Shown one piece after another: positions 4,675-45,098 of a stretch of DNA of 46,628 bases (positions within the stretch are counted from its first letter, which is position 1; every line of letters starts with the position of its first letter). Under the pieces are notes generated by a model. It did not search any database, was not told where the DNA came from, and saw nothing but the letters and a program-made list of their open reading frames with translations. The position numbers and the translations under genes were made by a program. The DNA comes from Acidobacteriota bacterium. GTDB taxonomy: Bacteria > Acidobacteriota > Terriglobia > 20CM-2-55-15. Location: contig JAHFTY010000008.1 in the NCBI GenBank assembly GCA_023265365.1, positions 1 through 46,628 on the forward strand, read 5' to 3'.

Positions 4675-4988
4675 GGCTTTGCACAAAAAGTCGCAGGAGG
4701 AAGAAATTTCCCCGCCTTGGCCAATGCGGGGTGCCGCCGAGCGGCGGGGCGGTACGTTCAACAGTCGATTCTTGAACAACACCACCCCGGCGCTTCGCGC
4801 CACTCCTCGTTGAGGAGGGGAAAACGCTTTTCCTCGATTTCGCTTATTGGGACTCCGATCCAGACGAAGTTCGCCGATAAGGGCGTTCTCGGAAAACCCT
4901 TTTCCGATTTCGCTTCATTGGGACAGCAGTGCCTCAACGAGGAGACATCTGAGTTGTTTTCTCGTCCTGCGACTTTTTGTGCAAAGCC
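4675..4988. repeat. Composite palindromic MITE-like element copy R1 (inverse orientation)
   Basis: 24-bp terminal inverted repeat ggctttgcacaaaaagtcgcagga at 4675 and its complement ending 4988; internal ccccgccttggcc.., accaccccggcgcttcgcgcc and ctcctcgttgaggag modules. Confidence 0.85.
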
Positions 4989-5192
4989 TCGCGAGGCAGC
5001 GGAAACATTGGGAAACCTCGGCGTGCTCGAACTCCACGCCAAACACGATGACCGGCCGAACATCCCGGGTTGGCGACTTTACAGCGGCCGCATTCCGCAA
5101 GTGGGGACGAGCCATGCGGAAAAAGCTAAACTACTAACGCATCAAGCAACAGTTCGAGTCTCAACAAAACCTTTTCCGGGGAGCAAAGCAGC

Positions 5193-5651
5193 ATGAAGAA
5201 CACACCCAAAGGATGGCCAAGAGTCAGTCCGGCGATCTTCTACGACGATGCGGCGGGCGCGATCGACTGGTTGTGCCGCGCCTTCGGCTTCGAGGTCCGC
5301 ATCAAGGTCGCGGGCGACAAAGGACGCATCGAACACTCCGAACTCGTCATCGGCGATGGCGTGGTCATGGTCGCGTCCAGCAACACGGATGCGCAGCCGC
5401 GGCTGCCGTTCAAAGCGCACTACAAGAGTCCCAGATCGCTCGGCGGCGCGACTACGCAGTCGCTGATGGTCTACATCGACGATGCCGAAGCACATTTCGC
5501 GCGCGCCAAAGCGGCAGGCGCCGGGATTTTCATGGAACCTTCGGTGCATGACTACGGCGACGACTACTGGGCGGACCGGAGCTATGGAGCCATCGATATT
5601 GAAGGCCACCATTGGTGGTTCACCGAGCGGATTCGCGATCCCAAGAGCTGA
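5193..5651 (+). CDS. VOC family (glyoxalase/bleomycin-resistance fold) protein
   Basis: PAIFYDDAAGAIDWLCRAFGFEVRIKV...DKGRIEHSELVIGDGVVMV...YGDDYWADRSYGAIDIEGHHWWFTERI. Confidence 0.85.
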   Translation: MKNTPKGWPRVSPAIFYDDAAGAIDWLCRAFGFEVRIKVAGDKGRIEHSELVIGDGVVMVASSNTDAQPRLPFKAHYKSPRSLGGATTQSLMVYIDDAEAHFARAKAAGAGIFMEPSVHDYGDDYWADRSYGAIDIEGHHWWFTERIRDPKS

Positions 5652-5691
5652 TGGCGGCGCCAAATCTCGACTCCACATCTGAATGCCCGGG

Positions 5692-6291
5692 CTAACTCAC
5701 GACGGCGCCTGCCGGAACGCCCGGCGTTGGTTTCTTCCGCAAGATCGCCGCGGACATGACCGTCATGATCAAACCAACCGGAAACGGTTCGACAAACGTA
5801 ATAGCCGCGTTGAAAAGCGGGTTCTGGTAGAGCCGCTTGAAATTATTCATCCGCACCACCTCGGCCTGCACCGTTTCCGGACTTGCGCCCGAAGCCTTCA
5901 ATCTGTCGATACTCACCGCGACGTACTGGTCCATGAACCCGGCCATGAAATGCATCTTGAAATACAGGATCTCCCAGGTCGCCACGTAGCAGAGACATGA
6001 AATCACCGTGATCAGAATGCCGACCGAGAATGCCCGCCCGAAGGTGATGGTTCCTCCCGCGACATTGTCCCGATAGGAACGGATCCCAAAAAACACGAAC
6101 AGGAACGACACCACGATCGCGGTGTATCCGACTAACTCGCCTTTGTCTCCAATCCGGTCGATAAATGGGATCGTGACGAGCATCATCGCCGTCGAGATCG
6201 CGCCCGACATCAGTCCGAATTTAACGATTGTCTTCCTCACCTGGCTGTCCTCCGCGGCCAAGATACGAGCCGGCGCGATTCCTGTCGTCAT
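5692..6291 (-). CDS. DUF4199-like membrane protein
   Basis: Hydrophobic 199-aa protein with GIRSYRDNVAGGTITFGRAFSVGILITVISCLCYVATWE; matches the DUF4199 pattern as I recall it. Confidence 0.75.
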   Translation of the reverse strand: MTTGIAPARILAAEDSQVRKTIVKFGLMSGAISTAMMLVTIPFIDRIGDKGELVGYTAIVVSFLFVFFGIRSYRDNVAGGTITFGRAFSVGILITVISCLCYVATWEILYFKMHFMAGFMDQYVAVSIDRLKASGASPETVQAEVVRMNNFKRLYQNPLFNAAITFVEPFPVGLIMTVMSAAILRKKPTPGVPAGAVVS

Positions 6292-6349
6292 CCTTTCGGG
6301 TGATTTTCGAGGCTTTCGCCAAAAATCATCCCTTTGAGTGAGCGCTTGA

Positions 6350-6814
6350 TCAAGGTATCAGGCCAAGATCCTTTCCGATTTGGGCCGCCTGCGTCCGCCG
6401 CTTCGCTCCGAGTTTGTCAAAAAGCCGGCTCGAGTGGGTCTTTACCGTGTTTTCGCTGACGAACAGCTTGCCGGCGATCTCCCGGTTGCTCAGTCCTCCG
6501 GCAATCAGCCCAAGTATTTCGAGTTCGCGAGGTGTGATGCCGAGTTCCTCGCGCTTCGCCTCATTAACGGTAAACGGCCCGGTTGAGGGTACCAGTATCT
6601 CCCGGACCACCACTCGTGCCTCTTTCGTCGTCAGCCTCGACCCGAGCCAGATCCCGAGGCCGGCGAAGACCGTCGCGACCAGGCCGCCATAGATCTCGAG
6701 AGAATGCTCCACCACCAGAAAGCGGTATTCCACGAGTTTAAGGACGGCGATGAGCGACCCGCTCAAAAGTCCATAAATGAGGACGTGTTTCTTCACGTCA
6801 AGAACCGCTCTCAC
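6350..6814 (-). CDS. Membrane-anchored LuxR-type helix-turn-helix regulator
   Basis: Two N-terminal hydrophobic segments then ITPRELEILGLIAGGLSNREIAGKLFVSENTVKTHSSRLFDKLGAKRRTQA. Confidence 0.88.
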   Translation of the reverse strand: MRAVLDVKKHVLIYGLLSGSLIAVLKLVEYRFLVVEHSLEIYGGLVATVFAGLGIWLGSRLTTKEARVVVREILVPSTGPFTVNEAKREELGITPRELEILGLIAGGLSNREIAGKLFVSENTVKTHSSRLFDKLGAKRRTQAAQIGKDLGLIP

Positions 6815-6819
6815 GATTG

Positions 6820-8109
6820 TCAGTGGTCATCCAGATCACCGGTCTTGTCCTTTAGCATCGCCACGCAGACGAGGCTGATCAGGCCTGTGATCGCGAGGTA
6901 GACGGCGATCGAGAGTGACGTCCCATACGTTTTATACAACCACACCGCAACGATTGGCGCCGGGCCGCCCGCCGTCAGAGAAGCGAGTTGATAACCGAGC
7001 GACGCGCCGCTGTAGCGCCGGGATCCCGGGAAACTCTCGGCGATAAACGCGGCCTGCGGCCCGTATTGCAGGTCGTGGAGCGGCAGACCGAGCACGATCG
7101 CGAGAAAGACCAGGCCTGTCTGTCTTGTATCCAGCAGGGCGAAGTAGACGAACGGAAACACCATCATGACCAGGCATCCCGCCATCGTCGTCTTCCGGCG
7201 GCCGATCCGGTCGGAGAGATGGCCGAATAAAGGAATCGTCCCCATCGATATCAGCGACTGGATCATGACGAAGTTCAGCAGGGTGGTCCGATTGAAACCC
7301 AGCACCGTCGTGCCGTAGGTGAGCACGTACAGCGTGAAGATGTAGAACGGCGTCTGCTGCCCGGTACGAAGCAGCGCGGTCAGGATAACTTCCCGCCAGT
7401 TCCGCCGCAGTACCTCCGCCACCGGCATTTTTGCAACGCGGCCTTCCGCTTTGAGCCTGGCGAAAACAGGAGTCTCCAGAATTCCGATTCGAATATAGAG
7501 TCCGATGAAAATCAGGATGAAGCTGAGCAGAAACGGCACGCGCCATCCCCACTCGAGGAACTGGCCGGAAGTCGTCGACGCAGTCATGACGGCGATCGCG
7601 CCGTTCGCCATCACCATTCCCGCGGGAGCGCCGAATTGAGCGAAGCTCGTTGTAAAACCGCGGCGCTTCGCGTCGGTCCATTCGCCGGCGAGCAGCACCG
7701 ATCCGCCCCACTCGCCGCCGACGCCGATTCCCTGCATGACGCGGCCGAGCGTCAGCAGCACGGCGCCCCAGACCCCGATCGTCTCGTAGCCCGGAACAAA
7801 ACCGATTCCCATCGTCGCGGCGCCCATCAACAGGAGAGTCGCGATCAAGGACGCCTTGCGGCCGACCCGGTCGCCATAGTGGCCGAAAATCGCGGCGCCG
7901 ACGGGACGCGCCGCGAACCCGACAAAGTAGGTTGAGAACGAAAGCAGGGTGCCGACGAACGGATCCGACTGCGGAAAAAACTTCTGAGGAAAGACGAGGG
8001 CGGCCGCTATTCCGTAGAGGAAGAAATCGTACCACTCGATCGTGGTTCCCACGGCCGACGCAACCACGGCCCGGACCAGTTGCTGCCGCCGCTTCGTTTC
8101 ATCAAGCAT
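6820..8109 (-). CDS. MFS transporter, metabolite:H+ symporter-like
   Basis: VVASAVGTTIEWYDFFLYGIAAALVFPQKFFP...GAAIFGHYGDRVGRKASLIATLLLMG; twelve hydrophobic segments plausible. Confidence 0.9.
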   Translation of the reverse strand: MLDETKRRQQLVRAVVASAVGTTIEWYDFFLYGIAAALVFPQKFFPQSDPFVGTLLSFSTYFVGFAARPVGAAIFGHYGDRVGRKASLIATLLLMGAATMGIGFVPGYETIGVWGAVLLTLGRVMQGIGVGGEWGGSVLLAGEWTDAKRRGFTTSFAQFGAPAGMVMANGAIAVMTASTTSGQFLEWGWRVPFLLSFILIFIGLYIRIGILETPVFARLKAEGRVAKMPVAEVLRRNWREVILTALLRTGQQTPFYIFTLYVLTYGTTVLGFNRTTLLNFVMIQSLISMGTIPLFGHLSDRIGRRKTTMAGCLVMMVFPFVYFALLDTRQTGLVFLAIVLGLPLHDLQYGPQAAFIAESFPGSRRYSGASLGYQLASLTAGGPAPIVAVWLYKTYGTSLSIAVYLAITGLISLVCVAMLKDKTGDLDDH

Positions 8110-8144
8110 CGGTGATCACCCATGATTCAGACCGCAAAGAATGG

Positions 8145-9500
8145 CTATCGCACGAACTCGAACGCGCTGGTCAGGTCGGCCACCATGGCGTCGCGGGTGG
8201 CGACCGGACGCAGGTTCCATCGGCGTTCGATGAAGGCCATGATGGACGTCGTATCGTACGGAGTGTGGTCCACGTAATTCTTCTTGGCGAACGGCGACAC
8301 GATGATCGCGGGCACACGAACGCCCGGCCCCCAGCGATCCACTTTCGGCGGCGCCACGTGATCCCAGCGTCCGCCGTTGTCGTCATAGGTGATGATGATG
8401 GCGCTTTTCTGCCAGTACGGACTCTTTCGGACCAGATCGACCAACTGGGCCACCTTCTGCTGGCCGCGCATGATCGAGGTGTAGCCGGGATGTTCGTTCT
8501 CTTCCCCAATCAGTTTGATGAAGGAGACGGAAGGCAGCTTTTCGGATTTGAGGTCTTCGTAGAAAACACTCTCGTCCTTCAGAAACTCTTTATTGAACTC
8601 GGTACCCTCGACGTACTTTTCGAAATAAACGAACGGCTGATGATGCACCTGGAAAAGACCGCCCGGCCGGCGCGCCATGGCGTCATCGTAACCGCCGGAG
8701 TAATAGCGCCACGAGATATTGCGCGAGGTGAGCCGGTCGCCGATCGTCGGCAGCGCCTGGGGCGGCACACGCCGGGCCGGATCGGTGGCATCCGCGGTGT
8801 AAGGCATTGAAAACGGATTCGCGTTGTTCACCACGTAGCCGTCGGGCGTGACGATTCCGTCCTTGATGATGGTGCCGTCCTTTTCAACTCGAGCCACCAT
8901 GTCCACCGGCGCATTCGGCCACCTCGGTGTGCATGCGCAGACAAACCACATGTGATTCAGAAACGATCCGCCGAAAGCGGCCATGAAAAAATTGTCCGCA
9001 AGGGTGAACTCCTGGGCGAGTTTTCCTTCAGGGAACTCCCTCGCGTCGTAGTAACTCATCGCCAGTCCTGACGCGTCGCTCCACGCCACGAAGCGGTCCA
9101 TCCTGCCTTTGTTGATTTGAAGCTGCTGTTGATAGAACCGGTGAATCGGATTCCCCGTCGTCTCGTCCGGCTTCACATACTTCGCCAGATCGAACGGCGC
9201 GACCGGCAGATCCGCCGGAAACCGCGGATCGGTCCGTGGCGGCCGGGTTCGGGTGTCGACGGGCTGAGGCAGGGTGGTGTAGGGCTTGCCTGACTTGTCG
9301 GTCTGTTTGACGGTGTTCTTCGCGTTTGCAATTCCGTTTGCCGCCGGAAAGAGACCGTAGAGGCTGTCGAAACTCCAGTTCTCCTGGTAGATGACAATGA
9401 TGTGCTGAATATCGCTCAGAGAAGCCGTCGAACGCTGGGCGGGAATAGCCATCATGACTGCGGGAACAAGAACGGCCAAAGCCAGGGCAATTCGTTTCAT
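8145..9500 (-). CDS. Phospholipase C/acid phosphatase-like phosphoesterase, secreted
   Basis: Signal MKRIALALAVLVPAVMMAIPAQ; IQHIIVIYQENWSFDSLYGLFPAANGIAN; IIITYDDNGGRWDHVAPPKVDRWGPGVRVPAIIVSPFA. The first 101 aa of the ORF call derive partly from repeat R2 and are rejected. Confidence 0.85.
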   Translation of the reverse strand: MKRIALALAVLVPAVMMAIPAQRSTASLSDIQHIIVIYQENWSFDSLYGLFPAANGIANAKNTVKQTDKSGKPYTTLPQPVDTRTRPPRTDPRFPADLPVAPFDLAKYVKPDETTGNPIHRFYQQQLQINKGRMDRFVAWSDASGLAMSYYDAREFPEGKLAQEFTLADNFFMAAFGGSFLNHMWFVCACTPRWPNAPVDMVARVEKDGTIIKDGIVTPDGYVVNNANPFSMPYTADATDPARRVPPQALPTIGDRLTSRNISWRYYSGGYDDAMARRPGGLFQVHHQPFVYFEKYVEGTEFNKEFLKDESVFYEDLKSEKLPSVSFIKLIGEENEHPGYTSIMRGQQKVAQLVDLVRKSPYWQKSAIIITYDDNGGRWDHVAPPKVDRWGPGVRVPAIIVSPFAKKNYVDHTPYDTTSIMAFIERRWNLRPVATRDAMVADLTSAFEFVR

Positions 9501-9619
9501 GGGTTCATATGGTATCGCGGCACTCCTCCGGAGCAGAATTGCGATTTCACTGACCCATGGCAGCCCGTGGCAGAAGACGCCTCGGCGCCCATTTTCGGTG
9601 GGGTCAGACCGCGAATGAC

Positions 9620-9894
9620 GGCTTTGCACACTCAGATGTCTCCTCGTTGAGGTACTGCTGTCCAATGAAGCGAAATCGAGGAAAAGCGTTTTTCCCCTCC
9701 TCGACGAGGAGGGGTGGCGCGAAGCGCCGGGGTGGTGCTGTTCAAGAAATTGATTTTGTTGAACGAACCGCCCCGCCGCTTCGCGGCACCCCGCCTTGGC
9801 CAAGGCGGGGAAAAGTCCTCGTCCTGCGACTCCATGGCTTCATGTCATAACCAGACCGCATCGCCCGACGTTTTTTCTCGCTCAGGGAATGTTG
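9620..9894. repeat. Composite palindromic element copy R2 (right terminal repeat missing)
   Basis: ggctttgcac at 9620, then gatgtctcctcgttgagg, cccctcctcgacgaggagggg, ggcgcgaagcgccggggtggt, ccccgccttggccaaggcgggg; ends directly beside the VWFA stop codon (9895). Confidence 0.8.
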
Positions 9895-12012
9895 TTAGCG
9901 CACGAGCAGAGCCAGTCGCGGAAACACAAACTTGCCGGCGGTGTCGTCGATCACGTTCACCTGGCATATGTAGAAGCCTGGCTTGAGTCTGCTCAATGGA
10001 ACGTCCAGTTCAATCGATGCCGCTTTTCGGTCCGGCGTGTTGATCTCATTGGTTTCGACGATTGGGGTCTCGAATACCCGGGTTGTTCCTTTAAAAAAGG
10101 TGGCGTTGGTGAGAATGCGCGTCGCGGGTTTCGCCGGTTCGTAGACTTCGTAAAAGAGGTAGAGGTGCTGATCCGATGAGAACACGTGGGTGACGCTCGG
10201 GACCAACTCCGTGCCATTTCTGAAGAGCGGATTGTCTTTCTTCGCCTTTGCCGCCTGCTTCTGGCTCGACGCCACCACGGAACTGATCTTCACCGGCGCG
10301 TCCTTCAGATTCGGCACGAAAAGATCCGTTTCGAACGAACCGACCTGGCCGGTCTGGTTTTCACGCAGCACGAACTTGATGTTGTAATTGCCGGGCGGCA
10401 GGAGGAAACCCGCATCGTACTGGACATTCTTCCGCTTCACGTCCTGTGTCGTGTTGAGGGCCAGCTTCACCGTGTCGCGTATGTTCCCGAACGGAATGCG
10501 GCCTCGCTGATCGCGGACGACTCCGATAATGTCCAGCGTCGCCTTGTCCTGGTCGCTGTCGCGAATGAACGGGATAGCGGAGCCCGGGACCACGAGCGAA
10601 ACGGGAACGAAGTACCGGAGGTCGGCGAGGCGGAAATATCCGGTGGAGAGATAAACCGGCAGATCCGTCCCCGGCAGGCCGGACGCCAGTTGTTCCTGCA
10701 GTTGCGTTTCCCGGTTTTCCTTCGTGGTGTGCTGAAAGTCGGCGTCCGCGTAATACCCGCGCCGGAAATCGAGTTTTGAGACGTCCTTCCGCTTCGCGGT
10801 CACCGTGATCCGCCGGAACCTTCCGTCCCTCACCGTATTCGTGCTCGTGTATCCGAGGACGTAATACATCGCCGAGTCTTCCTGAACTTTCGTAAAGGCC
10901 GGCCGGAAGTCGTTCGTGTCGAGGAAAGCTTTTCCGCCCGTGTCGCCTGCGAGAGTGACAAGTGTTTCCTGGGATGTGAAGTTCGAATCGAAGGCCTGCT
11001 GCATCGAGCGTCCGGAGAACATGGCCGCGCCGCCTCCACCTCCTCGACCGCCACCGCCTCGACCGCCACCGCCTCCTCCGCCTCCGCGCCCGCCGGATGA
11101 TGCACCCGGCGCGAGCGCTTGAAGGCCTCGAACATCGACGGTATAGATCGACATGTTGGCGCGAACTGCGGCGTTGGTGGCCGCCCGAACCTGAGACTGA
11201 TTCTCCACGCCGGTCTGGCTCATGCCGGAACTGAAGTAGATCAGCGATTTTTTCTGCTCGATGCCGGTCAGCGTCTCCGCGATGTCCTTCAGCGCGTCCA
11301 GCCGCCGGTCGGTGTTGAAGACGTTGTATTCGGTATCGTCCGCAGTGAACGAATCGTCGGTGACGCCTTCTTCCGCGGCGGCCGCTCCTGCGGTTCCCTC
11401 CTCGTGACCGGTCGCTGCGCCGGGATTAAACGAATGCACGACGGACTTGAGGATCTCGCGATCGGATGTAAAGTCCTGCGCGACTTCGAGTGCGCTCGAA
11501 AGAGAAACCACCGCGACCACATCGGCGGACTTCATCTGTTTGTCCACGTAGTTCTCCGCCGCCTCTGCCGCGCGCTTGATCTCTTCGGGCTGCATGGAAC
11601 TGAGATCGAAGAAGAGAATCATCAGCCGCCGGTCGCGAAACGTCTCTTTGGTGACGAGGGCGGGTTTGGTTTCTGCCGGATTCGACTTTGCGTTCAAGGC
11701 GCCCAGAAGGTTCGGCGCCTGCATTTCGTTGTTCAGGACGGCGTCTGTATTCTCGACGTCGATCGACAGGACTTTCTGAACCTTCCCATCTTCGAGGACT
11801 GTGAAGTCGTCCGCCTTGAGGTCTCGTACGAAGTTGCCGTCCTTGTCCCGCGCCGTGACGTTGACGAGAACCACCTCCGTGGTCGTCTTAAACGTGAATT
11901 GCGGAGCGCCTTGGGGTGTCGCGAAGGTCGACGCGAGAAACGTCAATGTCAGAAGAAGCAGCAATCCGATTCCAGGCGCCGCGGCGAAGCTCGGATTCCT
12001 CGGAATACGCAT
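9895..12012 (-). CDS. VWFA-related exported protein with polyglycine tract
   Basis: Start MRIPRNPSFAAAPGIGLLLLLTLTFLASTFATPQG; VVLVNVTARDKDGNFVRDLKADDFTVLEDGKVQKV; RLMILFFDLSSMQPEE; GGRGGGGGGGGRGGGGRGGGGG. Confidence 0.85.
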   Translation of the reverse strand: MRIPRNPSFAAAPGIGLLLLLTLTFLASTFATPQGAPQFTFKTTTEVVLVNVTARDKDGNFVRDLKADDFTVLEDGKVQKVLSIDVENTDAVLNNEMQAPNLLGALNAKSNPAETKPALVTKETFRDRRLMILFFDLSSMQPEEIKRAAEAAENYVDKQMKSADVVAVVSLSSALEVAQDFTSDREILKSVVHSFNPGAATGHEEGTAGAAAAEEGVTDDSFTADDTEYNVFNTDRRLDALKDIAETLTGIEQKKSLIYFSSGMSQTGVENQSQVRAATNAAVRANMSIYTVDVRGLQALAPGASSGGRGGGGGGGGRGGGGRGGGGGAAMFSGRSMQQAFDSNFTSQETLVTLAGDTGGKAFLDTNDFRPAFTKVQEDSAMYYVLGYTSTNTVRDGRFRRITVTAKRKDVSKLDFRRGYYADADFQHTTKENRETQLQEQLASGLPGTDLPVYLSTGYFRLADLRYFVPVSLVVPGSAIPFIRDSDQDKATLDIIGVVRDQRGRIPFGNIRDTVKLALNTTQDVKRKNVQYDAGFLLPPGNYNIKFVLRENQTGQVGSFETDLFVPNLKDAPVKISSVVASSQKQAAKAKKDNPLFRNGTELVPSVTHVFSSDQHLYLFYEVYEPAKPATRILTNATFFKGTTRVFETPIVETNEINTPDRKAASIELDVPLSRLKPGFYICQVNVIDDTAGKFVFPRLALLVR

Positions 12013-22476: not shown

Positions 22477-23504
22477 TGACCATCAACTCCCCTCCTGGAA
22501 CAGGAGCGGACCTTGCGCCGGGACGAAAAAAACACGCATTGTTGACGGCGCCCTGGGGAGGTCCCTTTGCGGAACTCCTGGTCCGGTGGTTTGAAGAGAA
22601 CCGCCGGCCGCTGCCGTGGCGCGAAACCTACGATCCGTATCATGTCTGGGTTTCGGAGGCCATGCTTCAGCAGACGCAGGTCGAAACGGCATTGCCTTTC
22701 TACGAACGATTCATCGCGCGGTTCCCTTCCCTCCAGTCACTCGCCGGCGCCGAAGAGTCCGAGGTGCTGAAGTTGTGGGCCGGGCTTGGCTACTACCGTC
22801 GGGCAAAAAACCTTCTGGCGGCTGCGCGAATCGTGGCCGCCCGTCACGACGGAAGAGTGCCGTCCGACTATGACGCGCTCATTGCGCTTCCCGGCGTCGG
22901 CCCGTACATGGCGGGCGCGATTCTGAGTATCGCCTTCAACAAACCATTTCCGGTCGTGGACGGAAATGTCCGGCGCGTTCTTTCACGGATATGCGGGTGG
23001 ACGGAGGAAAACCCGAAAGGTCTGTGGGCGGCTGCGGAACAGATCGCGTGCAGCGGAGAGCCGAGGTCGGTCAATCAGGCCATCATGGAACTCGGCGCAA
23101 AAGTCTGCTCATTCAAGGCGCCCCGTTGCCTGCTGTGCCCGATCCGGAGCGCGTGCGTGGCTTTCAAGACCGGAATGCAGGACCGGATTCCACCCGTCAG
23201 GAAACGTCCCGATACCGTTCATGTCCACCTTTTCGCGGTGGTTCACAAGCGGCGCGGCCGCTACCTGATGAAGCCATCAGACGGTATGTGGGAGTTCCCG
23301 ACGTTCACCGAACTCCCTCCGGGTGAATTCAAGCAAACAGGCTCCTGCCGGCACACCATCACCCATCACCGGCTGGACGTCAGCGTGTTTACCGGCCCTC
23401 TGGGTCCGCACGACGGCTTCGAGTGGCAAGCGTTGGAACAAGTGCCAGTCTCCTCACTGACGAAAAAGATCGCCGCACTCGCCCAGGTCGGCGGCAGAAA
23501 TTAG
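22476..23504 (+). CDS. mutY: A/G-specific adenine glycosylase
   Basis: LPWRETYDPYHVWVSEAMLQQTQVETALPFYERF; ALPGVGPYMAGAILSIAFNKPFPVVDGNVRRV; 4Fe-4S CSFKAPRCLLCPIRSAC (CX6CX2CX5C). Confidence 0.95.
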
Positions 23505-23508
23505 CGGA

Positions 23509-23801
23509 CACCACCCCGGCGCTTCGCGCCACCCCTCCTCGTCGAGGAGGGGAAAACGCTTCTCCTCGATCTCGCCTTATTGGGACTCACCGAGCGCGGC
23601 GCCCATTCCGAACCGCTGCGGGAAAACGCTTCTCCTCGATCTCGCCTTATTGGGACAACACTGCCTCAAGGTGGGGGCCCTCTCAAACAGTGGTTTTTTT
23701 CGCAATGCCTGGAATAGCCGTGCCATACAGCACAGCCTCAAGGTGGAGGACCCTCTCAAACAGGCCAGTTCCTCAAGAGGGGCGGCGCGAAGCGCCGGGG
23801 T
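23509..23801. repeat. Composite palindromic element copy R3, short terminal repeats, internal direct repeats
   Basis: accccggcgcttcgcgcc (23513-23530) and complement ggcgcgaagcgccggggt (23784-23801); gggaaaacgcttctcctcgatctcgccttattgggac at 23550-23586 and 23620-23656. Confidence 0.8.
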
Positions 23802-23821
23802 ATTGTCCGCCACGGCGAGGA

Positions 23822-28453: not shown

Positions 28454-28492
28454 GTTGTGAACTCCACCTCAAGAATTTGGTTTTCTCCGGGA

Positions 28493-28695
28493 CGGGGCTT
28501 TGCACAAAAAGTCGGTTCGGCGGTGAAGAGAAGTCGAGGAAATGCGTTTTCCCCTCCTCAGCGAGGAGGGGTGGCGCGAAGCGCCGGGGTGGTGTTGTTA
28601 TTCTGTTGAACGAACCGCCCCGCCGCTCCGCGGCACCCCGCCTTGGCCAAGGCGGGGAAATTCCTTCGTCCTGCGACTTTTTGTGCAAAGCCCCG
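28493..28695. repeat. Composite palindromic MITE-like element copy R4 (most compact copy with perfect TIRs)
   Basis: Perfect 22-bp TIRs cggggctttgcacaaaaagtcg (28493-28514) / cgactttttgtgcaaagccccg (28674-28695); 203 bp total; four internal palindromic modules. Confidence 0.92.
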
Positions 28696-28867
28696 AGACG
28701 GCACGAATCTGACACCGAGCTTCGGTCATGTCAAGGGACCGTGCGGCTAAGGATCACAAGAGGAAGGAAGGCGGGCGGCCCTCCGATTACCTTGTGGTGC
28801 GCGGGCGGGAAGAACGCTTCTGGCAAACGTCGGGTGATGAACCGGGCGAAGACCGCCGTGAGGTGAA

Positions 28868-34590: not shown

Positions 34591-34730
34591 ATTTCTCCTT
34601 TTCCGAACGATCGAACTTGAGAGCGAACCACGATTCCGAAGCACCGATGGTACGGGCAGCCGAGTTGAAAACACAAGAAACTAGCTAACGGCAACTGAAG
34701 TGCTTATTCGAATAGCGAAGGATTCGGATC

Positions 34731-35522: not shown

Positions 35523-35691
35523 CCTTCCGGTCGAAACTCCAGCCTCTGCGCGCCGTAGACGGCGGCCGTCGTCTTTGCTTACCGAAGGAACTGCCTTCAT
35601 TTGCGGGCGCGGTCCATGACCGCCGGCGGATACTCGCCGGCCGCCGCTATGAAGTTGTCAGGATATGCGTTTGGCCTTACAGTGATCCGCC

Positions 35692-36588: not shown

Positions 36589-36642
36589 GATCGGGAACAG
36601 ATTCCTTCGTTTTGTGATTCTTGTGCATGACGGCGAAGGGGA

Positions 36643-36665
36643 GGGCGCCGGTTTCGCCGGCGCCC
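36643..36665. terminator. GC-rich hairpin between convergent genes
   Basis: gggcgccgg-tttcg-ccggcgccc between VWFA stop (36588, +) and amidase stop (36678, -). Confidence 0.5.
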
Positions 36666-36677
36666 GGGAGAGCGAAG

Positions 36678-38123
36678 TCAGTCTGCGAAGGCCGGACGGC
36701 GTTCGTGCCAGTTGGTCGCCTGTTCGTACGCATAGGCCATTTCGAGAATCTTCCCGTCCGTCATCGGGGCACCGACAAAGTTAAGGGCCATCGGAAGTCC
36801 ATCCGAAGTGAATCCACAGGGCACGGATACGCCGGGAAGACCGGCAACATTGCCCAGCGTTCCAAGATTTCCGCCGCCTCCTCCTCCGCCAGGGCCGCCG
36901 CCTGCCGGATCGTCGGGATTGGCGCCGCCCGGATTACCGTTGGTTGCCGGCGGGGTGACGATCAGTCTCGCTCCGTTTGGATTTCGCGGCGCGATCAGGG
37001 CATCGAAACGCTGGTACATCTTTGCGGTTTCGAGGACGATCGCATGGCGGATGCGGAGAACCTTCATGTAGTCGGCAGCCGGTATCAACATTGCCGCTTT
37101 CCATCCGAGCCACTTGTCCTTGTTGATGAGCGCTTCCTGCAATTCGCCCTTTCGCGCAAACCTTTCGAATACCGTGCCGCCTTCGACCTGCCATACGAAC
37201 CGTGAAACGATGTTGTAAGGGTAGTCGGGCAGATCGACTTCCTCGAGATCGCATCCGAGATCTTTCAGCGTCTTGATGACCTGCTCGTATGCGGGTTTGG
37301 CCTTTGCGGAAACCTGGTCCCATTCCCTCTTCACCACGCCGATTCGCCGGCCGGACATCCTGGCCTTCGGATCGAAAGCGAACGGCGCAGTCACCGATGT
37401 CGGATCGCGCGGATCGGCGCCGTGAATCGCCTGAAACACGGTCGCGCAGTCGAAGACGCTGCGCGAAAGCGGTCCGAGCTTGTCCATCGTCCAGCTGAGC
37501 GGCATCGCTCCGTAGCGGCTGACGCGGCCATAAGTCGGACGCAGCCCCGCAACCCCGCACGCTCCCGCCGGCCCGAGAATCGACGCCGTCGTTTCCGAAC
37601 CGATCGAGAACACCGAGAAGGATGCCGCGGCGCACGCGCCGGGACCCGTCGATGATCCGGTCGTCCAATGATCGAGCTTCCACGGATTATGAACCGGGCC
37701 ATTGAACGCCGCAGTGGGCGGGCCGCCGGCCAGTTCGGTCATGCTCAGCTTGCCCAGCAGGATGGCGCCGGCGTCGCGAAGTTTCTCCACGACCGCTCCG
37801 TCGTGATCGGGAACCTGGTTGACGAAGAGGCGGGATCCCCAGGTCGTGCGGATGCCCTTGGTGGCGACCAGATCTTTGACCGCGTACGGAATGCCGTGCA
37901 ACAGTCCTTTGTATTTTTTGGCTTTGATTTCCTGCTCGGCTTTCTCCGCCTGTTCCATCGCGAGGTTTTTCGTGACCGTGATGAAACAGTTCACCTTCGG
38001 ATCCAGCGCCTCAATGCGCTCGAGGTACGCCTGGGTGAGCGCCACGGGCGAAAGCTTTCCGGATTTGATCTGGGACGAGAGTTGTTCGAGCGTCTGTGTG
38101 CAAAGAGCGTCGTTGGTATTCAT
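36678..38123 (-). CDS. Amidase-signature family enzyme with Gly-rich insertion
   Basis: MNTNDALCTQTLEQLSSQIKSGKLSPVALTQAYLERIEALDPKVNCFITV; GIPYAVKDLVATKGIRTTWGS; TTGSSTGPGACAAASF...SETTASILGPAGACGVAGLRPTYG. Confidence 0.92.
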   Translation of the reverse strand: MNTNDALCTQTLEQLSSQIKSGKLSPVALTQAYLERIEALDPKVNCFITVTKNLAMEQAEKAEQEIKAKKYKGLLHGIPYAVKDLVATKGIRTTWGSRLFVNQVPDHDGAVVEKLRDAGAILLGKLSMTELAGGPPTAAFNGPVHNPWKLDHWTTGSSTGPGACAAASFSVFSIGSETTASILGPAGACGVAGLRPTYGRVSRYGAMPLSWTMDKLGPLSRSVFDCATVFQAIHGADPRDPTSVTAPFAFDPKARMSGRRIGVVKREWDQVSAKAKPAYEQVIKTLKDLGCDLEEVDLPDYPYNIVSRFVWQVEGGTVFERFARKGELQEALINKDKWLGWKAAMLIPAADYMKVLRIRHAIVLETAKMYQRFDALIAPRNPNGARLIVTPPATNGNPGGANPDDPAGGGPGGGGGGGNLGTLGNVAGLPGVSVPCGFTSDGLPMALNFVGAPMTDGKILEMAYAYEQATNWHERRPAFAD

Positions 38124-38127
38124 CGGG

Positions 38128-38415
38128 TTATTTGTCCGCGTGAAAAACAAATGCGGGTTCGAGGGCGATGGGCAACTCAAAATCGCGAATCGTTTGAAGC
38201 TGGCGAATCGTGGTTTCGAGCTGAGGCTTCAAGGACTTCATCTCATCCGGCAAAGTCGGCTTGTAACCCATGTGCTCCAGCAGCGTCAGTGCGGTCTCGT
38301 CGGACAACTTTCCGGTTTGTCGTGATTCCTGGACGGCAGCTTCGAGCACGCTTCCGGTAAGAAACGTTCCAGCCACCATCTTTGAAAACATGCGTCGGCT
38401 GATTGGTTTTTTCAT
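38128..38415 (-). CDS. Small Tat-signal protein upstream of the amidase
   Basis: MKKPISRRMFSKMVAGTFLTGSVLEAAVQE (SRRxFxK Tat motif); ends 4 nt before the amidase ATG. Confidence 0.7.
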   Translation of the reverse strand: MKKPISRRMFSKMVAGTFLTGSVLEAAVQESRQTGKLSDETALTLLEHMGYKPTLPDEMKSLKPQLETTIRQLQTIRDFELPIALEPAFVFHADK

Positions 38416-38433
38416 GCGCGGGAGTATATACCA

Positions 38434-38469
38434 AGATTCCGGTGTCAGTGGTGCCTGACACCGGAATCT
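38434..38469. repeat. 15-bp palindromic REP-like element
   Basis: agattccggtgtcag-tggtgc-ctgacaccggaatct; 17-nt half-site recurs inverted at 18414-18430. Confidence 0.65.
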
Positions 38470-38472
38470 CCC

Positions 38473-39381
38473 TCACTGCCGGCCGCCTCCCCTGCCTCCG
38501 CGCTGGCCGCGGGGCGGGGCTTTCATCGCGCGGTACTGGGCGACCGCGGCGTTCGCTTTGAACTCGATGGCGACGCGGCCGAACTCGGCGGTGGCTTTTG
38601 TGGGATCGCCGCTGACGCTGGACTCCTGCTTGTTCCTTTCGCTGGCCGCGATGCGATTGACGCGGACGCTGTCCGGCCTGATGTACATCATCTGCGACGT
38701 GTCCTGGACGCCGGCGTGACTGCCGACCGTTTGCGCGTCCCAGCCGAACTGGGCAAGCAGCCAGGCTTCGAGGTATTCGTGGCCTTTGTCGTAGAAATCG
38801 GTGCACGCGAAAACCTTTGTGTCCGATCCTTCCCATTCCTTGTTCAATCGTTCTGCAACGGCCCGGAGCCCATTCTGGTTTCCGCCGTTGTCGCCGATCA
38901 GAATAATGTCCTTGAACCCGCCCGTTTTCAGACTGCGTGCCGCCGCCTCGACGATGCGCTCGAAGCAGAGGCCCGGACACGAGAGCACGCCAGGCGTCTC
39001 TTCGGTGGCCTGGCCCTCGGGTACGTACTGGATGACCGGCGCGATCAACGCGTTTCCGAGCTTCGCGGCGATGAGTTCCGCGCCCTTCCGGGAATGGTAG
39101 TTGTGCTTTCCCATGGTCATGTGGAACCCGTTCTTCTCGGTGCCGCCCGTCGGGACGATACCGACGGTGTTGCCGCCGGCAATGGCGTCACGCACTTCGT
39201 ACCAGGTGAGATCCTCGATAAAACGGCTCGGAACCGGGGATGCCTTTGGCGCCTCGGGCGGAGATCCTCGCTGACCGCCGCCGCGCTGTCCGGCTCCCGA
39301 CGGAGGGGTAGCCTGCGCAAACACCATCGACGCGATCAGCAGCGTCAATAAAATGAGACAGAGCGGCTTATTGATCTTCAT
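38473..39381 (-). CDS. Creatininase family protein, exported
   Basis: MKINKPLCLILLTLLIASMVFAQATPPSGAGQRGGGQRGSPPEA; NTVGIVPTGGTEKNGFHMTMGKHNYHSRKGAELIAAKLGNALIAPVIQYVPEG; FKDIILIGDNGGNQNGL. Confidence 0.88.
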   Translation of the reverse strand: MKINKPLCLILLTLLIASMVFAQATPPSGAGQRGGGQRGSPPEAPKASPVPSRFIEDLTWYEVRDAIAGGNTVGIVPTGGTEKNGFHMTMGKHNYHSRKGAELIAAKLGNALIAPVIQYVPEGQATEETPGVLSCPGLCFERIVEAAARSLKTGGFKDIILIGDNGGNQNGLRAVAERLNKEWEGSDTKVFACTDFYDKGHEYLEAWLLAQFGWDAQTVGSHAGVQDTSQMMYIRPDSVRVNRIAASERNKQESSVSGDPTKATAEFGRVAIEFKANAAVAQYRAMKAPPRGQRGGRGGGRQ

Positions 39382-40196
39382 CGCTCCTCCTGATTGCCGC
39401 CCTGCGCCATCAACTGTTTGATCTGCGAAACGGCATTGTCGATCTTGATCTGCAGGAAAATCTGCCCGAGCTGCGGCGTCGCCCGCGTGGGATCGCCGCT
39501 CACGCCGTTGGCCGGAGTTCCCTTTTCGAGTTTGGTGAGACGGATCCAGTTCGCATTGATGAACATCACCTCGGACGTATCCATGATGTTTGCGTGGTTT
39601 CCAATCTCCGCCTGGGGGATACCCAGTTTTGAGGCGATGTATTTTTCCTGATCGGCGTGCGACTTCGTGTAGTAATCGGGAATGAACAGCACGCGAACGC
39701 CGGCGCCTTTCCATGCGGCGTTCAGCTTTTCGGCGACCGCCTTCATCCCGTTCTGATTCCCGCCGGAGTCCCCAAGGAAAATGACGTTCTTGAAGCCGCT
39801 GGCCTTCATGCTGTTGGCGGCCGCTTCCAGAAGATCGGTGAAGCCCTTGTCGTCCGGCAACGAGATCGAGCCGGGCTTCAGCATGTGGCCGGCGGCCGGT
39901 TCCCACGCGCCCTCGGGAACGTAAGCGATGATCGGCGCGACGAGCGTATTGCCAAGGGTTCGCGCAATTTTGTCGGTCGTGTATTTCAGCACGTAATTGT
40001 GCTTCCCGATGATCATGTGCGGACCGTTGTCTTCCGTTCCGCCGGTCGCCACGATCACATTCCGGGCGCCGCCCCTGATGAGATCGCGAATCTCATCGAA
40101 TGTGAGGTCTTCGAAAAACACGGTATCGGGCCGCTGCGCGTGGAGGAGCATGGGCAGCAGCAAGAGGATCACGAGGCTCGTGGCCAGAGGTTTCAT
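39378..40196 (-). CDS. Creatininase family protein, exported
   Basis: MKPLATSLVILLLLPMLLHAQ; RNVIVATGGTEDNGPHMIIGKHNYVLKYTTDKIARTLGNTLVAPIIAYVPEG; FKNVIFLGDSGGNQNGM; overlaps the next gene as ATGA. Confidence 0.88.
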   Translation of the reverse strand: MKPLATSLVILLLLPMLLHAQRPDTVFFEDLTFDEIRDLIRGGARNVIVATGGTEDNGPHMIIGKHNYVLKYTTDKIARTLGNTLVAPIIAYVPEGAWEPAAGHMLKPGSISLPDDKGFTDLLEAAANSMKASGFKNVIFLGDSGGNQNGMKAVAEKLNAAWKGAGVRVLFIPDYYTKSHADQEKYIASKLGIPQAEIGNHANIMDTSEVMFINANWIRLTKLEKGTPANGVSGDPTRATPQLGQIFLQIKIDNAVSQIKQLMAQGGNQEER

Positions 40197-40239
40197 GGGA
40201 ACCTTTCTTGTGTGGCCGCGGTTACGCGGATGACGTTAC

Positions 40240-41412
40240 TTACAGACTCGTCATGAAGTCGTGGAGCCGTTTCACGCCCTTCTCGATTGTCTCCATCGAG
40301 GTGGCATAGGAAATCCGGACATGATCGTTCGTTCCGAAGGCTTCGCCGGGAACGACGGCGACGTGCTGTCTTTCGAGCAGCTTCACGGAAAAATCCAGGC
40401 TGTCCTTGATTCCCTTCCTGTACGCCGATGAAATGTTCGGATACGCGTAGAAGGCGCCGCCCGGCTCCGCGCACGCCACTCCGGGAATCGCCCGGAGACG
40501 TTCGACGATGAACTGCCGGCGCTTCGCATATTCACGCAGCATTTCGGCGACGGAATCCTGCGGGCCCGTCAACGCTTCGATGGCGGCTTTCTGAGCAATG
40601 GAGTTCGGGTTTGACGTGGAGTGGCTTTGCAGTTTCAAACACGCCTGCACAATTTCCTGGGGCGCGAGCATGAAGCCGATACGCCAGCCGGTCATTGCGT
40701 AAGTTTTCGAGAGGGAGCCCGCAACCATGACGTGACTCCGGAACTCCGGATGGCCGCCGATCGAGAAGGGTTTGCGATTGTCGTAAAGGAAGTAGGCGTA
40801 GCACTCGTCGTCGAGAAGATAGATATCGCGTTGCTTGCAGAGCTTCGCGATCCGGATGAACTCGTCGTCGTCGATCACGGCGCCGCTTGGATTGTTCGGC
40901 GAGTTCGCCACCACCAGGCGCGTCTTTGGAGTGATCGCTTTCTCAAGCATGGCCGCGGTCAGCCGGAAACCATCGGCTTCACTGGTGTGGAGAAACACCG
41001 GGTTGGCGCCGACAAACCGGGCGATGTCCGCGAAGGACACCCAGTACGGTGTCGGGATGATCACGTCGTCACCTTCATCGATCGCCGCGGCAAATATGTT
41101 GAAGATCGCGTGTTTGCCGCCGATGTTCACCAGACACTCGGAGACGTCGTACTTCGAACCGAAATCGCGCGTATGCTTCTCCACAATGGCTTTCTTCAGA
41201 TCGCGAATTCCGCCCACAGGCGTGTATTTCGTGAAGTTGGAGTGGATGGCCTCGATTCCGGCATTCTTGATGTTCTCCGGTGTCGGGAAGTCCGGCTCGC
41301 CGGGGCCGAAGTCGACCACGTCGACGCCCTGGTCACGGAGTTTGCCTGCGGCCTCGCCCACGGCCATCGTTTGTGAAACGGAAATCCGGGATATGCGTTC
41401 AGCTAGTTTCAT
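40240..41412 (-). CDS. Pyridoxal-phosphate-dependent aminotransferase (aspartate aminotransferase-like)
   Basis: DVVDFGPGEPDFPTPENIKNAGIEAI, VVANSPNNPSGAVID, DDECYAYFLYD, GSLSKTYAMTGWRIGFML. Confidence 0.93.
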   Translation of the reverse strand: MKLAERISRISVSQTMAVGEAAGKLRDQGVDVVDFGPGEPDFPTPENIKNAGIEAIHSNFTKYTPVGGIRDLKKAIVEKHTRDFGSKYDVSECLVNIGGKHAIFNIFAAAIDEGDDVIIPTPYWVSFADIARFVGANPVFLHTSEADGFRLTAAMLEKAITPKTRLVVANSPNNPSGAVIDDDEFIRIAKLCKQRDIYLLDDECYAYFLYDNRKPFSIGGHPEFRSHVMVAGSLSKTYAMTGWRIGFMLAPQEIVQACLKLQSHSTSNPNSIAQKAAIEALTGPQDSVAEMLREYAKRRQFIVERLRAIPGVACAEPGGAFYAYPNISSAYRKGIKDSLDFSVKLLERQHVAVVPGEAFGTNDHVRISYATSMETIEKGVKRLHDFMTSL

Positions 41413-41415
41413 TCG

Positions 41416-41904
41416 TCATAAATCCTTTTTGAATTTTTTCATGAGGCGGCGTTCCACCGATTCGGGAACCAGGCCTTTTACAGCACCGCCGAGTTGAGCA
41501 ATCTCTTTGACAAGGCGCGAGCTGAGGTAGGAATAGCTCTCGGCCGGAATCAGAAACACGGTCTCGACTTCGGAATTCAGGCGGCGATTCATCATCGCCA
41601 TCTGGAGTTCGTATTCATAGTCGGATATCGCGCGAATCCCCCGAACGATGACTTGCGCCTGCGACTCGCGAGCGTAGTCCACGAGAAGACCGTTGAACAC
41701 GTCGAACCGGACGTTCTTGAAACGCGGCTGCACGATCTCATGCATGATCTCCAGCCTTTCATCGGGCGAAAACAGCGGCTCTTTCTGCGTGTTCGTGAGG
41801 ATCGCCACGATGACTTCATCGAACAGGCGCGCGCTCCGCTCGATGATATCGATGTGCCCGTTGGTCAGCGGATCGAACGAACCGGGATAAAGGGCTCGAG
41901 TCAT
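41416..41904 (-). CDS. coaD: Phosphopantetheine adenylyltransferase
   Basis: MTRALYPGSFDPLTNGHIDIIERSARLFDEVIVAIL; VIVRGIRAISDYEYELQMAMMNRRL; YSYLSSRLVKEIAQLGG. Confidence 0.97.
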   Translation of the reverse strand: MTRALYPGSFDPLTNGHIDIIERSARLFDEVIVAILTNTQKEPLFSPDERLEIMHEIVQPRFKNVRFDVFNGLLVDYARESQAQVIVRGIRAISDYEYELQMAMMNRRLNSEVETVFLIPAESYSYLSSRLVKEIAQLGGAVKGLVPESVERRLMKKFKKDL

Positions 41905-41918
41905 TCAACCTCCGGTCT

Positions 41919-42449
41919 TTAGAAGCTCAGCACGCTGTCACCCTGTTGGAGCGTCCGTACCTTCTTCAGCTTCCCCGAACTCCCGGGCAAAGGCGATCTT
42001 TTCGAGTGCTCCAGTATCAAGAGACCTTCTGCGGACACCGAAGGGCGATCCAGCGCATCCTTATAGACCTGCTCGCGGTCGTAGGGCGGGTCGATGAACG
42101 CGATATCGAAAGCGATGCCGTCCCGGGCGCAAACCGTCAGCGCTCTGGCCAGATCCATTTCCAGGATTTTATAGCCGTGGGCGATACCGAGCGACTTCAG
42201 GTTTTCACGGATCATTGCCGTCGCTTTGCGTGATTGGTCCACAAAGATCACCATCGAGGCTCCGCGGCTGATCGCTTCGATTCCGATCGCGCCGACGCCG
42301 GCGCAGCCGTCAAGAAACGTACAGCCTCTCACAGTCTCGCCGAGGATGTTAAACAAAGTTTCCCGCAGCTTGTCGCTCGTCGGGCGCGTTCCCGGAGGCG
42401 GCGTGGCCTTGAGATGCCGGCTCTTGAATTGTCCGGAAATAATACGCAT
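41919..42449 (-). CDS. rsmD: 16S rRNA (guanine966-N2)-methyltransferase
   Basis: MRIISGQFKSRHLKATPPPGTRPTSDKLRETLFNIL; FLDGCAGVGAIGIEAISRGA; IAFIDPPYDRE. Confidence 0.93.
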   Translation of the reverse strand: MRIISGQFKSRHLKATPPPGTRPTSDKLRETLFNILGETVRGCTFLDGCAGVGAIGIEAISRGASMVIFVDQSRKATAMIRENLKSLGIAHGYKILEMDLARALTVCARDGIAFDIAFIDPPYDREQVYKDALDRPSVSAEGLLILEHSKRSPLPGSSGKLKKVRTLQQGDSVLSF

Positions 42450-42462
42450 TTAGTTAATGACG

Positions 42463-42500
42463 CGCCCCGCCCCGGCGCTTCGCGCCACCCCTCCTCGCGG
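42463..42500. repeat. Left part of an interrupted short palindromic module, split by R5
   Basis: gccccgccccggcgcttcgcgccacccctcctcgcgg before R5; matching ctgaggaggggaaa just after it (42848-42861). Confidence 0.6.
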
Positions 42501-42507
42501 AGACCGA

Positions 42508-42838
42508 GGCTTTGCACAAAAAGTTGCAGGGCGAGAAAACAACTCAGATGTCTCCTCGTTGAGGCACTGCCAATGAAGCGAAATCGAGGAAAAGCGTTTT
42601 CCCCTCCTCAACGAGGAGGGGTGGCGCGAAGCGCCGGGGTGGTGCTTCCAAGAAAATTGATTTTGTTGAACGAACCGCCCCGCCGCTCCGCGGCACCCCG
42701 CCTTGGCCGCCTTGGCCAAGGCGGGGAAAAGTCCTCGTCCTGCGACTCCACGGCTTCATGTAATAACCAGACCGCATCGCCCGACGTTTTTTCTCGCTTA
42801 GGGAATGTTGGATCCAAACCGACTTTTTGTGCAAAGCC
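42508..42838. repeat. Composite palindromic MITE-like element copy R5 (longest copy)
   Basis: ggctttgcacaaaaagt (42508-) and actttttgtgcaaagcc (-42838) ends; contains all modules plus a 64-bp block shared with R2. Confidence 0.88.
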
Positions 42839-42887
42839 CTGAGACCGCTGAGGAGGGGAAACCTGGGGGTGGCGCCGTCCATATCCC

Positions 42888-44984
42888 TTAGCCGACCGTT
42901 ACCAGTCCCGCAGGATTGACGCCGCCGCCCCGCGTCGACAGCCGCTGGATCAACCGTTCGCGTTCTTCATCGCGCGTGGCCCACAGCTCGGCCTCTTTCT
43001 GGGCGAGGTTGAGCAGGTACGCATCGGTCAGGAGATTCGCGTTCCGAAATTCAGGCAAGCCGGACTGGCGCGTGCCGGCCACCTCGCCCGGACCGCGGAT
43101 CTGCAGGTCCACTTCGGCGAGCTTGAATCCATCGGTGGTCGACACCATCGCCTTGATCCGCTGGCGGCCCACTTCGCTGACGGCGTGTCCCGTCATCAGA
43201 ATGCACAGCGACTGGTGCGCTCCGCGGCCGACCCGGCCGCGAAGCTGATGAAGCTGTGCGATGCCGAAACGCTCGGCATGTTCGATCAGCATGACGGTGG
43301 CATTTGCGACATCGACGCCGACCTCGATCACCGTCGTCGAGACGAGAATGTCGATCTCACCGGCGGCGAACGCCGCCATGATGGCTTCCTTCTCCTCGCT
43401 CTTCAACCGGCCGTGCAGCAGCGCGAGCCTCCGGTTCGCAAAGATTTCCGCGAGCTTCGTAAAACCCTCGGTCGCCGACTTCAAATCGATCTTCTCGGAC
43501 TCCTCGATCAGGGGATAGACAATGTAGCACTGGCGTCCTTCCTCGATCTCTTTCCGAATCATCGAGAGGACCCGCTCGGTCTCGCGCTCCGTGTAGTGAA
43601 CGGTGCGGATCGGGGTCCGTCCCGGCGGCATCTCATCGATGACGGACAGATCGAGATCGCCGTAAAGCGTCATGGCCAGCGTGCGCGGAATGGGTGTCGC
43701 CGTCATGACCAGCGTATTGGGATTCTCACCTTTCGCCATCAGTTGAAGCCGTTGCAGAACGCCGAAACGGTGCTGCTCGTCGACGATCACCAGGCCCAGT
43801 TTCCGGAATTGCGTATGCTCCTCGATCAGCGCGTGGGTGCCGATCACCAGGTGCAGTTCACCCGACGCGATCTTCTCGACCGTTGCCTGTTTCTCGCCCT
43901 TGCGGATTCCACTCCGCATCACGCCGATGTTGTAGTTGAGACCGCCGAGGATTCGCCTTGCATTGATGAAGTGCTGTTCGGCGAGGATTTCGGTGGGAGC
44001 CATCAGGGCCGCCTGATATCCGTTTTCGACGGCGATCACGATCGATTCGAAAGCCACGATGGTCTTGCCGCTGCCGACATCGCCCTGCAGCAGCCGGTTC
44101 ATCGGATACTCGGCCTTCAGGTCTTCGACGATCTCCTTCAACACCCGCTTCTGGGCGTTTGTGGGGTGAAACGGCAGAATGCGTTTCACCTGATCGCGAA
44201 CACGGTCATCCGTGTGGAATCGGACGCCTTTGACGGTGCGCGCCTGATGGCGCCGCAAAGCGAAAATCAACTCGAGAAGGAAAAACTCTTCAAAGATAAA
44301 CCGGTGATGGTACGGCGAGTCGCGATGATTGAGTCTCGTCAGGTCGTCGGACGTCTCAGGGAAATGAATGCGCTGCAGCGACGTCTTCAGGTCCGGAAGA
44401 CCGCACGACTCGCGCACCTCTTCGGGGAGAGGATCCTCGATGTTGCTGCCGAGCTGCGCCAGAGCGGTGGACACGATTCGGCGGAACTGACGGCTGGTGA
44501 TGCCCGCGAGCTCTTCATAGATCGGAACAACACGGCCGATATCCAGAGAGGACGGATCGTCCGTTTCTTCGATCACCTCGAACTCCGGATTAAAAAAGAC
44601 GAAGGTCGATTCATAGTGGTCGAACTCGACTCGTCCGAACATCACCAACCGGCGGCCCGCCGAAAACACCTTGTTCTGCTGAAGGTAGCCGCCATGAAAC
44701 CACTTCGCGTGAACGAAACTGGTGCCGTCCGTGAGAATGACGTCCAGAATCCGGCCGCGGGTGCGCGTCTCCAGAACGCGGCTGCGATACACCTTTGCCT
44801 GAATAGCGGTTTCCTGGCCGACCTTGAGCGCGTTCAGGGGCACAAACCGCGCTCGATCCTGATACGCGCGGGGGAGATGGAGGAGCAGATCCTCGACGGT
44901 CCGGATGCCGCGGGAACGCAGGAGTTCCCCGCGTTTGGGCCCGACTCCTTTGATGTATTGAACCTCTGAGTCCAGCTTCAGCAT
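42888..44984 (-). CDS. recG: ATP-dependent DNA helicase RecG
   Basis: MLKLDSEVQYIKGVGPKRGELLRSRGI; LLQGDVGSGKTIVAFESIVIAVENGYQAALMAPTEILAEQH; VTATPIPRTLAMTLYGDLDLS. First 20 aa of the ORF call come from repeat R6. Confidence 0.96.
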   Translation of the reverse strand: MLKLDSEVQYIKGVGPKRGELLRSRGIRTVEDLLLHLPRAYQDRARFVPLNALKVGQETAIQAKVYRSRVLETRTRGRILDVILTDGTSFVHAKWFHGGYLQQNKVFSAGRRLVMFGRVEFDHYESTFVFFNPEFEVIEETDDPSSLDIGRVVPIYEELAGITSRQFRRIVSTALAQLGSNIEDPLPEEVRESCGLPDLKTSLQRIHFPETSDDLTRLNHRDSPYHHRFIFEEFFLLELIFALRRHQARTVKGVRFHTDDRVRDQVKRILPFHPTNAQKRVLKEIVEDLKAEYPMNRLLQGDVGSGKTIVAFESIVIAVENGYQAALMAPTEILAEQHFINARRILGGLNYNIGVMRSGIRKGEKQATVEKIASGELHLVIGTHALIEEHTQFRKLGLVIVDEQHRFGVLQRLQLMAKGENPNTLVMTATPIPRTLAMTLYGDLDLSVIDEMPPGRTPIRTVHYTERETERVLSMIRKEIEEGRQCYIVYPLIEESEKIDLKSATEGFTKLAEIFANRRLALLHGRLKSEEKEAIMAAFAAGEIDILVSTTVIEVGVDVANATVMLIEHAERFGIAQLHQLRGRVGRGAHQSLCILMTGHAVSEVGRQRIKAMVSTTDGFKLAEVDLQIRGPGEVAGTRQSGLPEFRNANLLTDAYLLNLAQKEAELWATRDEERERLIQRLSTRGGGVNPAGLVTVG

Positions 44985-44992
44985 TGCTTCAG

Positions 44993-45098
44993 CACCACCC
45001 CGGCGCTTCGCGCCACCCGTCCTCGGCGAGGAGGGAAAACCCAATCACCTGACATTTCCCCTCCTCAACGAGGGGTGGCGCGAAGCGCCGGGGTGGTG
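44993..45098. repeat. Short palindromic element R6 abutting the recG start
   Basis: 26-bp perfect terminal inverted repeat caccaccccggcgcttcgcgccaccc (44993-45018) with its complement ending at 45098; 106 bp total. Confidence 0.88.

Follow-up and report, generated by a model that had tools for sequence, protein, structure and literature searches.

The window analyzed here is the whole of contig JAHFTY010000008.1 (46,628 nucleotides; C257 of the 4.72-Mb, 362-contig draft genome G000, assembly GCA_023265365.1) from an Acidobacteriota bacterium, in which six loci carry GC-rich palindromic repeats. Our analysis reveals two superimposed layers in these repeats: a dispersed, non-autonomous core resembling a REPIN (a hairpin-forming doublet of repetitive extragenic palindromes [REPs]) and, in a minority of copies, a miniature inverted-repeat transposable element (MITE) bounded by terminal inverted repeats (TIRs). 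An earlier note, made from the window sequence, had taken the loci for one non-autonomous MITE/REP-type family built from nested palindromes; this stands in outline, given the REPIN-like doublets and 9-bp target duplications described below, but two distinct things had been merged into one. On balance we favor the view that the REPIN-like cores are gene-less DUF559 cassettes, spread in trans by DUF559 proteins, with a subset enclosed in MITEs. The observations behind it are the architecture, arrangement and copy number of the units, a cross-phylum association with DUF559 genes, a discrete cassette at two unrelated sites, and TIRs accompanied by 9-bp duplications.

Architecture and abundance of the core units

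Each unit consists of two hairpins (stem B, then stem A) and a tag, laid out as CCCCTCCTC..GAGGAGGGG, second hairpin, GGGGTGGT. In full, unit 1 is CCCCTCCTC-nnn-GAGGAGGGG, T, GGCGC-GAA-GCGCC and the tag GGGGTGGT, and unit 2 is CCCCGCCTT-GGCC-AAGGCGGGG, T, GCCGC-n-GCGGC and the tag GGGGCGGT; a direct reading of the sequences shows them to be homologs that differ by paired changes in each stem. A core is formed by a pair of units facing tag to tag over a linker of ~30 bp. Counts of arrangement, footprint and gene context were taken from 754 kb of G000 stretches (16% of the genome), in which 37 of the 46 neighboring pairs less than 200 bp apart were tag to tag, the gap being nearly always 27-31 bp and mostly 29-31 bp. 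These 37 doublets have the REPIN form of two inverted REP hairpins with a conserved spacer, and their 117-bp consensus is nearly invariant; their tags, GGGGTGGT or GGGGCGGT, are not the GTAG or CGTC of REPs associated with RAYTs (REP-associated tyrosine transposases). The core at 28548-28660 folds with z = -6.65. Across the bacterial family, which includes Candidatus Sulfopaludibacter, stem A varies in sequence yet remains paired (5.5 of 7 outer positions, vs 3.76 +- 0.25 with shuffled partners; 26 types). Genera g1, g2 and g4 carry units and g3 does not, and within the class the exact unit pattern is almost confined to this family.

Genome-wide, there are 355 matches to the 31-bp unit sequence at <=3 mismatches and 49 sites matching the 19-bp terminal repeat at <=1 mismatch, with 0 for either reversed pattern, while 125 structural units were found in 708 kb vs 0 after shuffling. 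These counts, along with the folding of the core, indicate that the six window repeats are not a product of chance. Repeat-related DNA makes up 2.7% of the 754-kb sample, spread over 112 places. The further genomic copies anticipated by the earlier note are thus abundant; the conserved ends it anticipated are not, as most copies lack them, many stop in other arms, and terminal repeats are limited to a minority. No Rfam family matched anywhere in the window when a non-coding RNA reading was checked. In many long copies, an alternative right arm, TTCCGACAGGTCACATCGCTGGAATCCAAGACCATCGTGCATTTC, replaces the TIR arm from consensus position 262 onward (e.g., L177:3158, L158:18848, L156:2120).

Association with DUF559 genes

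DUF559 is a family of Vsr-like PD-(D/E)XK nucleases (COG2852) of about 120 residues. In relatives of G000 from the same family, units of this architecture sit on either side of DUF559 genes, their tags pointing inward; record L185 (Acidobacteriota, Bryobacterales) holds a DUF559 protein 100% identical to that of one such relative, G001. The cassette protein matches the solved homologue 3hrl at E 7.5e-28 and is thus nuclease-like. Genus g3, the sole genus of the family without units, is also without DUF559.

To extend this comparison across many phyla, 80 DUF559 loci were scored for an inward-facing hairpin unit tagged GGGG[TC]GG[TA] within 220 bp of the gene. Such a unit was present on at least one side in 49/74 cases and on both sides in 26/74, vs 3/276 offset positions. 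Once orthologous loci had been merged, the values were 34/55 and 17/55, vs 0/58 controls, such that inward tags characterize, as a class, the DUF559-bracketing cassettes that we propose. The tag definition undercounts, because DUF559 genes outside the family carry variant tags. Variant tags (e.g., GGGGGTTGT in L272, from G056) were seen at hairpin-bracketed DUF559 genes of L271, L272, L273 and L274.

One cassette, in the order unit-DUF559-unit, is ~98% identical over ~460 bp between contigs assigned to Nitrospinota (L198:158-620) and Thermodesulfovibrionales (L199:1687-2149). Since the flanks of these copies are unrelated, with homology ending 12 bp beyond one hairpin and 8 bp beyond the other, the unit-DUF559-unit arrangement behaves as a mobile unit. 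The window core resembles a cassette of this kind in which the ~30-bp linker stands in place of the gene, suggesting that it derives from such cassettes and that DUF559 nucleases probably moved the units.

The cassette protein is a member of the same family as Caulobacter VsrA, PDB entry 3hrl and E. coli YcjD; those proteins are, in contrast, described as repair-type or orphan nucleases, with VsrA required for a DNA damage response (PMC12907096). In the open-access papers searched, we found no link between DUF559 and palindromic repeats or mobility.

Terminal inverted repeats and target duplications

Three window loci, 4675-4988, 28496-28692 and 42508-42838, bear GGCTTTGCACAAAAAGTCG and its reverse complement at their two ends (with one mismatch at 42508), as the earlier note had described. 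TIRs of 18-19 bp define 21 distinct pairs when relatives are included, of which 13 show 9-bp direct duplications matching at >=8/9 positions at the exact TIR ends (0.6 expected by shuffling). Perfect duplications were of 9 bp (8 pairs) or 10 bp (1 pair) only, i.e., a target duplication of constant length, 9 bp. The TIR-ended copies are therefore true MITEs, with IS903-like ends. The insertion sequence (IS) IS903B has the ends GGCTTTGTTGAATAAATC and a 9-bp duplication (PMC10569121), and the resemblance to IS903-type MITEs of the IS5 family covers the ends (GGCTTTG...GTC), their length of 18-19 bp and the 9-bp duplication; the difference is an interior that is here a captured REPIN-like core. 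No IS903-type transposase was found in the genome or its relatives, and searches of these draft assemblies with PF01609, PF00872 and PF13737, or for open reading frames (ORFs) next to TIRs, yielded no autonomous element with the same ends. Because no matching transposase was found, assignment to an IS family is a guess. In G003 (L106), a TIR-like end adjoins an IS1182-type element that is itself lodged in another repeat, which was judged coincidental.

Core and TIRs are separable, because a 104-bp TIR element without a core exists (L046). MITEs often sit inside unit hairpins, e.g., that at 42508-42838. Tandem 9-bp duplications lie inside the 22-bp palindrome in 4 of 11 altered copies (e.g., window 42700-42717, L168:15783, L172:2459, L176:6498); these hint at excision of TIR elements, though they are too few for a claim.

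Proposed mechanism and alternative explanations

In the mechanism we propose, a DUF559 nuclease would recognize ends made up of a hairpin plus a tag and cleave at them; the cores would then be copied in trans, most likely through repair following the cut. Separately, a DDE transposase, perhaps of IS903/IS5 type, would move the TIR-enclosed core as a MITE, generating the 9-bp duplications. The MITEs have often inserted into hairpins of units already in place, and this contributes to the nested, mosaic look of the repeats.

Several points weigh against this mechanism. Bracketing shows association, not mobilization, and DUF559 could be a passenger; the hairpins could also be terminators that DUF559 genes tend to acquire. 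Because most offset control positions fall in coding DNA, the contrast with them is somewhat overstated, and untagged GC-rich hairpins alone occur at 67/76 DUF559 positions vs 52/276 offset positions. The DUF559 cassette has no evident target duplication, and one relative (G007) carries units with no DUF559 detected. Nor was a DUF559 gene detected in G000 itself, a 362-contig draft of the sort from which multicopy cassettes can drop out, such that an assembly gap is possible; the sampled 16% of that genome held no unit-bracketed gene of DUF559 size. For the MITE layer, no DDE_Tnp_1 or Transposase_mut gene lies beside TIRs, and DDE_Tnp_1_5 went undetected in a search run without a positive control. 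Three distant inward pairs in the G000 sample were considered as DUF559-like cassettes and rejected, as they hold unrelated genes or none.

An explanation in terms of one MITE family would have the TIR-ended element as the mobile entity, TIR-less copies as its decayed remnants and the palindromes as cargo. The TIRs and 9-bp duplications are real, and stubs of the TIR are kept in some TIR-less copies (window 9620-9629); nonetheless, we think this unlikely, as units far outnumber TIR sites (355 vs 49), other arms terminate many copies, units occur in genomes almost devoid of TIRs (80 units and 1 TIR-like site in G001), and TIR elements of relatives often differ in length and interior. Similarly unlikely, in our estimation, is that selection on the host maintains the units as bidirectional terminators or as stabilizers of mRNA 3' ends, which DUF559 genes happen to adjoin. 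Their location would suit such a role: elements sit a short way past gene 3' ends (median distance 39 bp, vs 94 bp for 5' ends) and are over-represented in convergent gaps (23/29, vs 9/41 divergent gaps; p 2e-6), with 93 of 98 element midpoints falling outside genes as called by a simple codon-usage script rather than a standard annotator. This would, however, leave unexplained the fixed doublets with their conserved linker, the inward-facing tagged units on both sides of a gene, and the near-identical cassette in unrelated contigs.

About equally unlikely is a classical REP/REPIN system moved by a RAYT (a Y1 transposase), either lost from the genome or acting from a single Y1 gene. The parallels with REPIN/RAYT systems (PMC3116915, PMC3733652) comprise hundreds of intergenic hairpin units tagged at one end and arranged as inverted heterodimers with a conserved spacer, a preference for (convergent) gene 3' ends, and related units bracketing the gene for a DNA-processing enzyme. 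The studied units differ in having two hairpins each and a GGGG(T/C)GGT tag in place of GTAG or CGTC, and in relatives the gene they bracket encodes a DUF559 PD-(D/E)XK nuclease, not a Y1 HUH transposase. The RAYT (TnpA-REP) partner suggested in the earlier note did not materialize: the one Y1 (RAYT-like) transposase gene of G000 (L061; G000:C232:32019-32345) is flanked by the inverted repeats gggacagtcccc / ggggactgtcccc, which are unrelated to the studied units. Those flanks fit the GGGGWSAS repeat motif of TIRYT genes, several of which are acidobacterial (PMC3733652), and G000 thus has a TIRYT element as its single Y1 gene.

The mechanism centered on DUF559 suggests that this little-studied nuclease family may play, for the repeats described here, the part that transposases play for the classical palindromic repeats of bacteria. 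Tentatively, and at somewhat less than even odds in our judgment, the idea can be generalized: alongside HUH (Y1) and DDE transposases, DUF559 nucleases would form an additional type of enzyme by which palindromic repeats are dispersed, with the GGGG[TC]GGT two-hairpin unit as their recognition end, unit-DUF559-unit as the autonomous element, and gene-less doublets like those of the window as its MITE-like derivatives. For many palindromic repeats of bacteria that fall outside the GTAG class, CGTC REPs among them (PMC3733652), no enzyme is known. A small nuclease family whose genes recur between tagged hairpin repeats of one class, DUF559 offers a concrete candidate enzyme (about 120 residues, easily purified, with a solved relative in 3hrl), making the question of what disperses such repeats directly testable. 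If true, this would point to a primary role for DUF559 proteins other than that implied by their current Vsr-like repair annotation.

Repeat copies in the window

All six loci hold repeats within a few bases of where the earlier note had placed them. Of its proposal that the same ordered modules recur in each, the full core is borne out at 4675, 9620, 28493 and 42508; the loci at 23509-23801 and 44993-45098 are instead pairs of a single unit type with tags outward, without the 22-bp palindrome module ccccgccttggccaaggcgggg. The copies are as follows (strand given where assigned).

4675..4988, minus strand: TIR-ended composite element, 314 bp, without target duplication; TIRs 4675-4693 and 4970-4988
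4710-4753 and about 4779-4819, within that minus-strand element: GGGGCGGT-type unit and GGGGTGGT-type unit (one internal deletion), respectively
9620..9894, plus strand: element of the long type, eroded at its ends; after a partial TIR (9620-9629) it matches consensus positions 35-299 with 98% identity
9694-9736 (plus) and 9767-9810 (minus): units in the 9620 element
23502..23812: outward-facing unit pair with outer ends TAGCGGACACCACCCC ... GGGGTATTGTCCGCCA; aaaacgcttctcctcgat box present twice
23510-23552 (minus) and near 23766-23803 (plus): intact and decayed units, respectively, of the 23502 pair
28487..28495: left target duplication of the 28496-28692 MITE, CCGGGACGG, 8/9 identical to the right copy
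28496..28692, plus strand: short-type MITE, 197 bp, with shortened linker; perfect 19-bp TIRs 28496-28514 / 28674-28692
28551-28593 (plus) and 28614-28657 (minus): core units in the 28496 MITE
28693..28701: right target duplication of the 28496-28692 MITE, CCGAGACGG
42464..42507, minus strand: left half of an older unit, host of the 42508 MITE in its hairpin loop; right arm gaggagggg at about 42850-42859
42508..42838, plus strand: full-length MITE of the long type (331 bp), bounded by TIRs at 42508-42526 and 42820-42838
42601-42643 (plus) and 42674-42726 (minus): units in the 42508 MITE
42700..42717: 9-bp tandem duplication, GCCTTGGCC followed by GCCTTGGCC, inside the palindrome; possible excision footprint
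44993..45098: outward-facing unit pair without TIR; units 44993-45035 (minus) and 45058-45097 (plus)

The duplication around 42508-42838 is imperfect and offset by one base, reading cggagaccg (42498-42506) and ctgagaccg (42839-42847). A longer common end, GGGGTGGTGTCCGCCA, is shared by the outward-facing pairs at window 23502-23812 and L151:1918-2042; a search for an outward-pair subfamily with such GTCCGCC-extended ends showed it to be small.

The genes beside the window repeats are ordinary, encoding an FtsX-like permease, a glyoxalase, a phosphoesterase, an HhH-GPD glycosylase, an amidase and RecG. The FtsX-like permease reading frame (window 3911-4657) is short and stops just before the 4675 element, and may represent a truncated gene.

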